From Roseitranquillus sediminis (GTDB lineage: Bacteria; Pseudomonadota; Alphaproteobacteria; Rhodobacterales; Rhodobacteraceae): 64,000 nt of DNA. Below are positions 17,000 through 56,314 of the stretch, in pieces. The notes under the pieces are model-generated. The model worked only from the letters and a program-made list of their open reading frames with translations. It was not told the origin of the DNA and ran no database searches. The translations under genes were made by a program, and so were the position numbers. How positions within the stretch are numbered: the first letter of the stretch is position 1; each line of letters starts with the position of its first letter. The stretch is from assembly GCF_016918935.1 (NCBI RefSeq), contig NZ_JAFFOB010000015.1:124001-188000 (forward strand). Reading direction: 5' to 3'.

Positions 17000-19453
17000 A
17001 TGAGCAGCTTTAATGATGGCGATGCATTTGAGGCGGCGGGCTCGCTGTCCTCCCGCGCGATGGCGGCGCGGCCCGCGCCCTACCTCGACCAGTTGAACCC
17101 GGCGCAGCGGGAGGCGGTCGAGGCGCTGCAGGGTCCGGTGCTGATGCTGGCCGGCGCGGGCACCGGCAAGACGCGCGCGCTGACCGCCCGGATCGCGCAC
17201 CTGCTGGACACGGGGACGGCGCGCCCGAACGAGATCCTGGCCGTCACCTTCACCAACAAGGCGGCGCGCGAGATGAAGGATCGCGTCGCGCGCCTGCTGG
17301 GCCAGACGGTGGAGGGGGTGCCGTGGCTCGGCACGTTCCACGCGATCTGCGTGAAGCTCCTGCGCCGTCACGCCGAACTGGTGGGGCTGAAGCCGAACTT
17401 CACCATTCTCGACACTGACGACCAGCTCCGCCTGCTCAAGCAACTGATTGCGGCCGCGGACATCGACGAGAAGCGTTGGCCGGCCCGGCAGCTCGCTGGT
17501 CATATCGACCAGTGGAAGAACCGGGCGTGGAGCCCGGCGAAGGTGCCGGTGGCCGAGAGCGGCGCCTTCAACCGCCGCGGGATCGAGCTCTATGCCGCCT
17601 ATCAGGAGCGGCTGCGCACCCTGAACGCCGTCGACTTCGGCGACCTACTGCTGCACGTCCTGACGATCTTTCAGGAGCACGACGATGTGCTGGCGCAGTA
17701 CCAGCGCTGGTTCCGCCATATCCTCGTCGACGAGTACCAGGACACCAACGTCGCGCAGTATCTCTGGCTGCGCCTGCTGGCGCAGGGGCACCGCAACATC
17801 TGCTGCGTCGGCGACGACGACCAGTCGATCTACGGCTGGCGCGGTGCCGAGGTGGGCAACATCCTGCGCTTCGAGAAGGACTTTCCCGGCGCCAAGGTCG
17901 TGCGGCTGGAGCAGAACTATCGCTCGACCCCGCACATCCTCGCGGCCGCATCGGGCCTCATCGCCGCAAACGCGGGGCGCCTCGGCAAGACGCTCTGGAC
18001 CGACGCCGAGGCCGGCGCGAGGGTCCGCCTGATCGGCCACTGGGACGGCGAGGAGGAGGCGCGCTGGATCGGCGAGGAGATCGAGGCGCTGGGGCAAGGC
18101 ACCCGCGGCCTCCGGCCCGTGCCGCTCGACCAGATCGCCATCCTCGTCCGCGCCGCCCACCAGATGCGCGCCTTCGAGGACCGGTTCCTGACCATCGGCC
18201 TGCCCTACCGGGTGATCGGCGGCCCGCGCTTCTACGAGCGGCTCGAGATCCGCGACGCCATGGCCTACTTCCGCCTCGCCGTCAGCCCCGACGACGACCT
18301 CGCCTTCGAGCGCGTGGTCAACACACCGAAGCGCGGTCTCGGCGACAAGGCGCAGCAGCGGATCCAGATCGCCGCCCGCGAGAGTGGTGTGAGCCTGCAC
18401 GAGGGCGCACGCCTGCTGGTCCAGTCCGGTGAGATCGGCGGCAAGGGCGGTCGCGAGCTCCGCCTTCTGGTCGAGTCGGTCGATCGCTGGCACCGCGATG
18501 TCGCCGGAGGTGCCTTCGTTGCCGGAGGCGAAGTCGAAGGGCTCGTCATCGAGGAGGACGCGCCGGCCCGAAATGTTCGCTCCCACATCGAACTGGCTGA
18601 GATGATCCTCGACGAGTCGGGCTACACGGCGATGTGGCAGAACGACAAGACGCCCGAGGCGCCGGGGCGGCTTGAGAACCTCAAGGAGCTGGTGAAGGCG
18701 CTGGAGAGCTTCGACAACCTCCAGGGCTTCCTCGAGCACGTCGTGCTGATCATGGACAACGATTCCGACGCAGGCGAGCCGCGGGTCAGCGTGATGACGC
18801 TGCACGCCGCGAAGGGGCTCGAGTTCCCGGCGATCTTCCTGCCGGGGTGGGAGGATGGCCTCTTCCCCAGCCAGCGCTCGATGGACGAGAACGGTCTCAA
18901 GGGGCTCGAGGAGGAGCGGCGCCTGGCCTATGTCGGCATCACGCGCGCCGAGGAGCTCTGCACCATCTCCTTCGCTGCGAACCGCCGGGTCTATGGCCAA
19001 TGGCAGTCGCAGCTGCCCTCGCGCTTCATCGACGAACTGCCCGCCGACCATGTCGAGGTGCTGACGCCGCCGGGCCTCTACGGCGGCGGCTACGGCGCGG
19101 CCGGCATGGGGGCGACGGCCTCGCCCGCGCTGGCCGGGATGCAGGGCTCCGACCTGCACGAGCGTGCCTCGCGTTCCAACGTCTACAACTCGCCCGGGTG
19201 GAAGCGGCTTCAGACCCGCGGGCAATCCCGCGGCATGAGTCAGCCGCGCGAGCAGGCGAATATGGTGATCGATCTCGAGGCGGTCTCGGCCTTCGACGCG
19301 GGGGACCGCGTCTTTCACCAGAAGTTCGGCTACGGCAGCATCCGCGCGATCGAGGGCGACAAGCTCGACATTGCCTTCGACAAGGCGGGGTCGAAGAAGG
19401 TCGTCGCGAGATTCGTTGTCGCGGCCGACGCGGCGGGCGACGTGCCCTTTTGA
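17000..19453 (+). CDS. uvrD: UvrD/PcrA-type DNA helicase II
   Basis: An 817-residue SF1A helicase that unwinds DNA 3'-5' in nucleotide-excision and mismatch repair and removes RecA or stalled polymerase. Motifs in order are LNPAQREAVEALQGP (Q motif), AGAGTGKTRALTARI (Walker A), DEYQDTN (Walker B), GDDDQSIYGWRGA, LEQNYRSTP, VMTLHAAKGLEFPAIFLPG and YVGITRAEE. The C-terminal residues (about 755-817) form the Tudor-like domain (FDAGDRVFHQKFGYGSIRAIEGDKL) that contacts RNA polymerase. The N-terminal extension MSSFNDGDAFEAAG is usual for related bacteria. It is followed by a long non-coding interval. Confidence 0.95.
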   Translation: MSSFNDGDAFEAAGSLSSRAMAARPAPYLDQLNPAQREAVEALQGPVLMLAGAGTGKTRALTARIAHLLDTGTARPNEILAVTFTNKAAREMKDRVARLLGQTVEGVPWLGTFHAICVKLLRRHAELVGLKPNFTILDTDDQLRLLKQLIAAADIDEKRWPARQLAGHIDQWKNRAWSPAKVPVAESGAFNRRGIELYAAYQERLRTLNAVDFGDLLLHVLTIFQEHDDVLAQYQRWFRHILVDEYQDTNVAQYLWLRLLAQGHRNICCVGDDDQSIYGWRGAEVGNILRFEKDFPGAKVVRLEQNYRSTPHILAAASGLIAANAGRLGKTLWTDAEAGARVRLIGHWDGEEEARWIGEEIEALGQGTRGLRPVPLDQIAILVRAAHQMRAFEDRFLTIGLPYRVIGGPRFYERLEIRDAMAYFRLAVSPDDDLAFERVVNTPKRGLGDKAQQRIQIAARESGVSLHEGARLLVQSGEIGGKGGRELRLLVESVDRWHRDVAGGAFVAGGEVEGLVIEEDAPARNVRSHIELAEMILDESGYTAMWQNDKTPEAPGRLENLKELVKALESFDNLQGFLEHVVLIMDNDSDAGEPRVSVMTLHAAKGLEFPAIFLPGWEDGLFPSQRSMDENGLKGLEEERRLAYVGITRAEELCTISFAANRRVYGQWQSQLPSRFIDELPADHVEVLTPPGLYGGGYGAAGMGATASPALAGMQGSDLHERASRSNVYNSPGWKRLQTRGQSRGMSQPREQANMVIDLEAVSAFDAGDRVFHQKFGYGSIRAIEGDKLDIAFDKAGSKKVVARFVVAADAAGDVPF

Positions 19454-19657: not shown

Positions 19658-19773
19658 AAAAAAAAGCGGCGACACCGGGGAGGAGGTCGGTGTCGCCGCC
19701 AGAAGTCAGAAGACCCAGGGAGGAGGAAGGACCTTCTGTCAGAACCCGTGGTGGAGGGAGGATCCACCGTGGG
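19658..19773 (-). ncRNA. Cuckoo/CcsR-like small RNA with three CCUCC hairpins
   Basis: Read on the minus strand, three hairpins follow one another. Hairpin 1 (19773-19745) has GGTGGA/TCCACC around TCCTCCC, with a lower CCC/GGG clamp. Hairpin 2 (19738-19707) has a continuous 10-pair stem CAGAAGGTCC/GGGTCTTCTG, with two GU pairs, around a 12-base loop containing CCTCCTCCC. Hairpin 3 (19699-19666) has a perfect 12-pair stem GCGGCGACACCG/CGGTGTCGCCGC around ACCTCCTCCC and runs into eight T's (19665-19658), a textbook intrinsic terminator. Anti-Shine-Dalgarno CCUCCUCCC loops plus a terminator are the hallmark of the CcsR ('cuckoo') sRNAs of Rhodobacteraceae. The 5' end and promoter are not determined. 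A small palindrome TGCTGC-TAT-GCAGCA sits upstream at 19827-19841. Confidence 0.72.
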
Positions 19774-20098
19774 CCTGCCCCTATCTGGACCTTTATGCTG
19801 CGCTTGCACAATGGGTTTCGCTACAATGCTGCTATGCAGCAACCGCATGGCGCACAAGGGACCATTATGAAGGCGCTGTGATAATTTTCGCGGCAGTCTC
19901 TGGACCACCACGGGTTCGACAGCCGGATCTGCACGCCCGCATTTCGGTGGCGCGATTCGGCGCATCAGTGGGCCGTGCCCGGGAAGTCATGGGCGCTGCC
20001 GGCGAAAAGTTCTGCGCCTATATCTGGTGCCTCTCGTGTTTCGCGTGCGGCAACAACCACCTCATCTGGTGAAGGAGCTTCATGACCTGCACGTCGAG

Positions 20099-20394: not shown

Positions 20395-20898
20395 TTGGCG
20401 CGCAGGTTCAGAGGTGAAGGCCGCCACAAGGTCGACGCAAAGGGACGGGTCTCGATCCCCGCACTCTTCCGTCGCGTGCTCGAGGCCGGCGATCCCGACT
20501 GGAAGGAGGGCCTCCGCCCGCAGCTCGTCATCGTCTACGGCGATCACCGCCGCGAGTTCCTCGAATGCTTCACGATCGAGGCGATTGACGAGGTCGACGC
20601 CCGAATCGACGCCATGCCCCGCGGCTCGCCCGAGCGGCGGCTGTTGGAGAAACTGGTGCAAGGGCAGTCGCTTCCCACCGAGGTTGACAGCGACGGGCGC
20701 CTCGTCCTGCCGCAGAAGCTGCGCGACAAGATCGGCATCGAGAGCGAGGCCTACTTCATCGCCAGCGGCGACACCTTCCAGATCTGGAAGCCCGAGACCT
20801 ACGAGCGGGTCGACGCCGCGAAGACCCGCGCGCTGCTCGACGAGATGCCCGAGGACATGGACATCCTCGCGCTGCTCGACCGGGCGCCGGAGGTTTGA
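20395..20898 (+). CDS. mraZ: Transcriptional regulator MraZ
   Basis: A 167-residue DNA-binding protein of the MraZ family, first gene of the dcw cluster and usually a repressor of it. Two tandem AbrB-like half-domains are present, each with the conserved DxxxR signature (DAKGR near residue 15, DSDGR near residue 99). The start is TTG at 20395 ([18 protein letters not shown]), with AAGGAA 7-8 bases upstream; no ATG or GTG fits the family N-terminus. The stop is one base before the rsmH GTG. Candidate target boxes lie 250-300 bases upstream. Confidence 0.95.
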
Positions 20899-55709: not shown

Positions 55710-55852
55710 GGGCCAGGGAGCATCCCGGCGACGCCGTAGTCCCGTAGCCCCCCTTGCATCTCTGCGGCAGTCCCGCCATCTGAACCGCGAGAGGACGACC
55801 TCTCCCCTGACGGGGCAGCATTCGGGACGGCCCGCTGCAAGAGGGCTGTTCG

Positions 55853-56314
55853 ATGCGCAACACTCGCGACAGGATCAGACAGGCGCTGGCGTTCGAGGCG
55901 ATCGGCCTCACCGTCGTCACCCCTCTGATCGCATGGCTCTTCGGGGGCCACATGGGGGAGGTTGGCGTGCTCGCAGTCATCGGCGCGAGCCTCGCCACCT
56001 TCTGGCACTATGCCTTCAACTGGAGCTTCGACCGCCTGCTGCTGGCAGCCCGCGGCCGGACCGACAAGACGCTGCCCCTTCGCGTCGTGCATGCGCTGGC
56101 GTTCGAGGGCGGGCTGCTCGTCCTGATGCTGCCGGTGATCGCGTGGTGGCTGGACGTCTCGCTGGCGCAGGCGCTGGCGATGGACGTGGTTTTCGCAGCT
56201 TTCTACGTGGTCTACGCCTTCGTCTTCACCTGGGCCTACGACCGGCTGGTGCCGCCACCTGCGGCAGAAGGAGACCGCCGCGGGTTTGCTACTGGAAGTT
56301 GCGGCTGTCCTTGA
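55853..56314 (+). CDS. PACE-family small efflux transporter
   Basis: A 153-residue protein with two tandem bacterial transmembrane pair (BTP) domains, giving four helices, as in AceI-type PACE exporters of chlorhexidine and other biocides. Motif-like features are RIRQALAFEAIGLTVVTPL at the start, FWHYAFNWSFDRLL, RVVHALAFEGGLLVLMLPVIAWWL and FYVVYAFVFTWAYDRL. Family pattern and length fit well; the substrate is inferred. Its last 26 bases overlap the 3' end of the J-domain gene on the other strand. Confidence 0.88.
   Translation: MRNTRDRIRQALAFEAIGLTVVTPLIAWLFGGHMGEVGVLAVIGASLATFWHYAFNWSFDRLLLAARGRTDKTLPLRVVHALAFEGGLLVLMLPVIAWWLDVSLAQALAMDVVFAAFYVVYAFVFTWAYDRLVPPPAAEGDRRGFATGSCGCP

Follow-up and report, generated by a model that had tools for sequence, protein, structure and literature searches.

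The DNA between uvrD and mraZ raises the question of what kind of RNA is encoded there on the minus strand, and of what is unusual about it at this place. The window, by which the whole 64-kb stretch of analysed DNA is meant, carries on the minus strand at 19777-19658 three hairpins with CCUCC in their loops, followed by a U8 tail, as read from the sequence and its fold. An RNA had been predicted to face the 3' end of uvrD, between this gene and the dcw leader, and this placement was borne out; the same spot is occupied by the CIN1 locus in relatives. The features of the locus were the following:

17000..19453, plus strand: uvrD, the convergent neighbour (Pfam UvrD domains)
19658..19777, minus strand: stand-alone three-hairpin anti-Shine-Dalgarno sRNA, predicted transcript of about 118-120 nt (Rfam ar14 match, fold)
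19740..19777, minus strand: hairpin 1 (H1), loop UCCUCCC, a degenerate motif (fold)
19707..19738, minus strand: hairpin 2 (H2), first half of a CcsR unit, CCUCCUCCC in the loop (alignment to relatives)
19665..19700, minus strand: hairpin 3 (H3), stem of the intrinsic terminator, CCUCCUCCC in the loop (22-sequence alignment)
19658..19665, minus strand: U8 tail of the terminator (sequence)
20395..20898, plus strand: mraZ, first gene of the dcw cluster (Pfam MraZ)

The fold had a minimum free energy of -55.6 kcal/mol, as against -41.2 ± 3.8 kcal/mol in 200 dinucleotide shuffles (z = -3.8), and none of the 200 shuffles reached the value of the native RNA; the three hairpins and the U8 tail noted on the minus strand were confirmed. 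H1 consists of an inner 6-bp stem (GGUGGA/UCCACC) enclosing UCCUCCC, with an imperfect outer stem around both, and it lies between the promoter and H2, which is the position of ccaF1 in relatives. H2 comprises 10 pairs, G-U included, enclosing UUCCUCCUCCCU, and H3 comprises 12 pairs, or 13 with a terminal G-U, enclosing ACCUCCUCCC, with eight T directly after. CCUCC was found in all three loops, as predicted, whereas the full CCUCCUCCC motif was present in H2 and H3 and absent from H1, which has CCUCCC only. A consensus scanner called neither a terminator nor a sigma-70 promoter at the RNA locus; its loop limit is 8 nt and the loop of H3 has 10.

Family membership and the CIN1 site

The Rfam model ar14 (RF02344) matched 19779-19662 over its full length (model positions 1-123) with 60.0 bits, 1.2 bits above the curated cut-off of 58.8 (E = 2.3e-8 for the 64-kb window, both strands searched). 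The model CcsR1 (RF02791) matched H2-H3 with 50.0 bits, below its cut-off of 65.3. H2-H3 do have the two hairpins with CCUCCUCCC loops of CcsR1, and the CCUCCUCCC motif that ar14 has in all three loops was incomplete, since H1 deviates. The CcsR arrays linked to ccaF1 passed the ar14 cut-off as well, so the ar14 model does not separate NfeR1 from CcsR. The window RNA was the sole ar14 match above the cut-off in the genome; searches for further copies with ar14 and CcsR1 gave weak remaining matches only, the best of which (contig 12, 27.6 bits) consists of one hairpin carrying UCUCCUCCU and was not taken as a second copy. Elsewhere in the window, a Guanidine-II riboswitch was recognised at 55787-55835 on the plus strand (41.6 bits, cut-off 32), just 5' of the gene at 55853-56311, which encodes a 153-aa BTP/chlorhexidine-efflux (PACE-type) transporter (PF05232, E = 4.6e-44).

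H2-H3 could be aligned with the CcsR units of relatives, giving 22 sequences (the window and 21 units), and in several relatives, e.g., L033, L083 and L086, the aligned unit lies directly 3' of ccaF1. Covariation of the stems among relatives had been proposed as a check on the RNA, and it was found: 84.6% of the cells in H2 and H3 were paired, as against 42.7-53.0% when the partner registers were slid. Double-changed cells numbered 52 compared with 19.5 in shuffled alignments, a count which is inflated by relatedness, and the argument rests on the slid and swapped controls. Changes on both sides occurred in 6/10 pairs of H2, while in H3 all 11 aligned pairs were kept in 22/22 sequences, 6 of them with changes on both sides. 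In the larger set of 376 hairpins, the arms formed stems of 9.5 pairs on average with their own partner and of 5.8 when swapped, and stems of at least 8 pairs were obtained in 66% and 20% of cases, respectively.

The organism falls within the Rhodobacteraceae/Paracoccaceae/Roseobacteraceae, and the window UvrD shares 81% identity with its counterpart in Kandeliimicrobium roseum. The surroundings of the RNA were compared with those in relatives. Minus-strand CCTCC arrays were present in the stretch after uvrD in relatives, with 2 to 15 hairpins per array in related Rhodobacteraceae, and ccaF1, detected with an HMM of the 71-aa DUF1127 protein in up to 4 kb per locus, followed uvrD in 53 of the 80 named loci. 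Among the 29 best matches to ar14 in other genomes of the family, 27 had ccaF1 directly before the array. This is the arrangement of CIN1, ccaF1-CcsR1-4, in Rhodobacter sphaeroides (PMC10253847), and the window RNA, facing uvrD and upstream of mraZ, has the position of CIN1 in relatives. The window RNA takes up the ancestral place of CIN1, with uvrD on one side and mraZ on the other; the CIN1 promoter boxes are kept, and it has a terminator of its own.

The arrays of the family varied widely. About 15 anti-Shine-Dalgarno hairpins stand behind one ccaF1 in Loktanella and a relative (L111, L082, L004), far exceeding the eight of CcsR1-4; in an uncultured Tropicimonas (L060), a single stretch holds four ccaF1-like genes, and hairpin pairs separate several of them; and two genomes (G096 and G087, loci L027 and L028) have a complete CIN1 locus together with a second anti-Shine-Dalgarno RNA lacking ccaF1.

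The assignment to the CcsR/cuckoo family in the original prediction stood in kind, on the grounds of Rfam, CIN1 synteny, H2-H3 orthology and covarying stems, and the window RNA is a known kind of RNA. The suggested novelty of the three-loop form did not stand: a three-hairpin anti-Shine-Dalgarno form is known from ar14/NfeR1 of rhizobia (PMC10746234, PMC7143759), and RNAs with three and four hairpins were compared in 2011 to a two-loop RNA of R. sphaeroides (PMC3927594). With CcsR1-4/CIN1 (ccaF1-ccsR) of R. sphaeroides the window RNA shares the anti-Shine-Dalgarno hairpin pair, H2-H3, and the terminator, and relatives have ccaF1 and such arrays at its site. However, it has no ccaF1 in its operon, carries a third, 5' hairpin, is predicted to form one short transcript and not a processed array, falls below the CcsR1 cut-off and has no evident RpoH-type promoter. 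With ar14/NfeR1 of Sinorhizobium meliloti it shares the three anti-Shine-Dalgarno hairpins, the stand-alone length of about 120 nt (predicted here), the upstream TGCA-N6-GCAT box and a score above the Rfam cut-off, but it belongs to another bacterial order and another locus, its H1 motif is incomplete and it is orthologous to CcsR units in both synteny and sequence. The SmelA075/SmelA099 families, which have been compared with R. sphaeroides RS0680a (PMC3927594), likewise have three and four hairpins with CCUCCUCCC loops; these are rhizobial copies, set beside the window RNA here by their published description. Finally, UpsM of R. sphaeroides is the dcw leader RNA and the window RNA sits just 5' of that leader, but on the opposite strand and with a different structure, and no evidence of a functional link with UpsM/StsR was found. 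Identity with StsR was ruled out, StsR being a 72-nt orphan sRNA that acts on UpsM (PMC8307010, PMC8625941).

A promoter in common with a distant ccaF1

The ccaF1 (DUF1127) gene that belongs directly upstream in the CIN1 operon is missing here, and neither ccaF1 nor a remnant of it was found by HMM search of the 64-kb window. The one good ccaF1 of the genome lies on contig 12. It is full length (71 aa, DUF1127 43.7 bits), has no CCTCC hairpins downstream and stands between a gene for a branched-chain-type ABC substrate-binding protein and an exosortase-like gene, these two neighbours being named from their sequence alone. The promoter region of the window RNA contained the following elements:

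19827..19841, minus strand: inverted repeat TGCTGCATAGCAGCA at the core of the conserved regulatory box, almost unchanged across 87 distinct promoters 5' of relatives' ccaF1
19805..19838, minus strand: composite promoter pattern TGCATAGCAGCATTG-N12-TTGTGCA (exact pattern search)
19806..19811, minus strand: putative -35 hexamer TTGTGC, with every base conserved to 91% or more across 43 aligned promoters
19795..19808, minus strand: TGCA-N6-GCAT box (TGCAAGCGCAGCAT), matching in form the LsrB box of NfeR1 (sequence; relatives' promoters)
19783..19788, minus strand: putative, weak -10 hexamer CCAGAT (43 aligned promoters)

The window RNA and the contig 12 ccaF1 both have the composite promoter TGCATRGCAGCATTG-N12-TTGTGCA or a sequence close to it. 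Of 120 family genomes, 20 had the exact pattern: 19 had a single site each, and this genome had two, those of the window RNA and the contig 12 ccaF1 only; a backwards control pattern gave 0 sites in the 120 genomes. TGCA-N6-GCAT was present in 62 of 87 distinct upstream regions (shuffled expectation 0.045 per set), and the second box, TGCA-N6-GCA, in 65 of the 87 promoters of relatives. In the window promoter the second box is exact and the first has one mismatch (TGCG), as in about one fifth of relatives. From the start of the pattern to the first CCTCC loop there are 78 nt in the window, as against 104-145 nt in other ccaF1-less loci, and the predicted transcript start, at about 19776, falls where the ar14 match begins. 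Compared with the LsrB-responsive sigma-70 promoter of ar14, the TGCA-N6-GCAT box and the -35 were seen and the -10 was weak, CCAGAT ranking second lowest of 43 with a family consensus of about TATCTT.

These results showed that ccaF1 was lost from the window locus and survives elsewhere behind the same promoter boxes. The unusual part of this locus, which the original prediction had overlooked, is the loss of the neighbouring DUF1127 gene together with the promoter held in common with a distant ccaF1. No published description of such a split CIN1 operon was found in a search that did not cover the central cuckoo RNA paper (10.1080/15476286.2015.1017206), which makes this a weak absence.

As for the regulator, LsrB binds the TGCA-N6-GCAT box at NfeR1 (PMC10746234), and AbcR1 is a further target activated by LsrB/VtlR, as are small hypothetical proteins in A. 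tumefaciens and Brucella (PMC7486931). The consensus GCAT-N3-TG-N3-T of B. abortus/A. tumefaciens (PMC8844928) was tried by eye and did not fit. The ccaF1-CcsR promoter of R. sphaeroides depends on RpoHI/RpoHII (PMC10253847), so the control of the window RNA may differ. The window promoter resembles the LsrB box of NfeR1; by eye, the TGCA-N6-GCAT form found at NfeR1 was the only one that fitted. In S. meliloti, lsrB presumably lies beside trxB; in this genome no LysR gene adjoins trxB, whose neighbour is an Lrp/AsnC-type gene, and trxB synteny yielded no LsrB gene. A PhaR site, CTGC-N3-GCAG, was considered as another candidate reading of the promoter palindrome.

Furthermore, four other genomes combine an array at uvrD that lacks ccaF1 with a ccaF1 at another place: Rhodovulum sp. 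12E13, HLUCCA09, G065 and, probably, Mangrovicoccus. In both Rhodovulum sp. 12E13 and HLUCCA09, the promoter and hairpins stand at uvrD without ccaF1, and a hairpin-less ccaF1 lies elsewhere behind a promoter with one mismatch. A similar split was seen in G065, where the promoter at the orphan ccaF1 matched less well (4 mismatches), and in Mangrovicoccus the RNA half stands at uvrD while ccaF1 lies elsewhere without a recognisable promoter. The five split rows require four changes on the UvrD tree (a quick FastTree), on which Meinhardsimonia xiamenensis is sister to the window and retains promoter, ccaF1 and array intact next to mraZ. One common origin of all splits was not supported, given these four changes and the neighbours of the orphan ccaF1, which differ between this genome and the Rhodovulum pair. 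It is conceivable, and we give it a little under even weight, that several independent events have each broken the CIN1 operon into two transcription units, one for a stand-alone anti-Shine-Dalgarno RNA and one for an orphan ccaF1, with the same rare promoter of the LysR type kept by both.

Separately, Mangrovicoccus sp. HB161399 has ten ar14-like matches on different contigs (L221, L228, L234, L237, L240, L242, L243, L244), which are dispersed stand-alone two-hairpin RNAs; those compared were 77-96% identical over about 75-99 nt only, with unrelated flanks.

Proposed function and its meaning

The window RNA, part of a split operon, probably acts in trans as a stand-alone riboregulator of the CcsR/cuckoo/ar14 type. 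A LysR-type activator (LsrB/VtlR-like) would transcribe the RNA and the distant ccaF1 together; the RNA of about 118 nt would expose CCUCC in three loops, perhaps partly redundant, and these would pair with GGAGG in the ribosome-binding sites of many mRNAs and block their translation. CcaF1, supplied in trans, may still aid RNase E and the stability of the RNA. For NfeR1, loop-dependent silencing of targets has been shown (PMC7143759, PMC10746234), and this RNA has been described as Hfq-independent (PMC10746234). The pattern GGGAGGAGG-N3..9-ATG occurred 12 times in this genome and once for the backwards control, with sites before plausible genes for a Usp protein, an HPPD-like dioxygenase, a TRAP DctQ subunit, a malate/lactate dehydrogenase (Ldh_2), an ABC ATPase and a metallo-beta-lactamase-fold protein. 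These are ordinary strong ribosome-binding sites and hence no evidence of targeting; the pattern matches are a pointer to candidate GGAGG targets only.

It is unlikely that the locus is a decaying relic, a CIN1 locus without ccaF1 and most of its hairpins whose remainder is little or not expressed. The weak -10, the degenerate loop of H1 and the presence of only three hairpins, against up to 15 in relatives, would agree with decay; however, the promoter boxes fit the conserved pattern exactly, the stems and loops of H2-H3 and the U8 are intact and covary with relatives, and ccaF1-less arrays persist in four other genomes. Quite improbable, too, is a role mainly as a sponge, in which the CCUCC loops would sequester another RNA or an RNA-binding protein (CcaF1, Hfq) or occupy ribosomes in place of silencing a defined set of mRNAs. 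Across the family the loops are identical and repeated and the stems variable, the Caulobacter sponge RNA CrfA inactivates sibling sRNAs (PMC12559287) and CcaF1 binds RNA (PMC10253847), but direct silencing of mRNA by the loops of NfeR1 is experimentally supported (PMC10746234). That the RNA is a true NfeR1 orthologue, ar14 in the strict rhizobial sense, and not a CcsR derivative, seems very improbable: it passed the ar14 cut-off, failed that of CcsR1 and has three hairpins and an LsrB-like box, yet CcsR arrays with adjoining ccaF1 also pass the ar14 cut-off, and synteny and H2-H3 orthology indicate CIN1. A role limited to ending transcription, or to insulating convergent uvrD from the dcw leader, can practically be set aside for the hairpins, although their position and the good minus-strand terminator formed by H3 and U8 would suit it, since no T tract follows H3 on the plus strand, so that H3 is not the terminator of uvrD, and since the conserved loop motifs and the promoter immediately upstream would be left unexplained.

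With a stand-alone riboregulator as the preferred reading, the locus bears on how CcaF1 and its RNAs work together. CcaF1 has been reported to mature the CcsR RNAs out of a joint transcript, and genomes in which ccaF1 and the RNA are unlinked and share a promoter offer a natural test of whether CcaF1 acts in trans and whether the RNA works without it. If the CIN1 operon has indeed been split repeatedly, selection would keep co-expression and not the processing in cis of one transcript. Additionally, the conserved TGC-rich promoter provides a testable link between the LsrB/VtlR small-RNA network of rhizobia and the Rhodobacteraceae.
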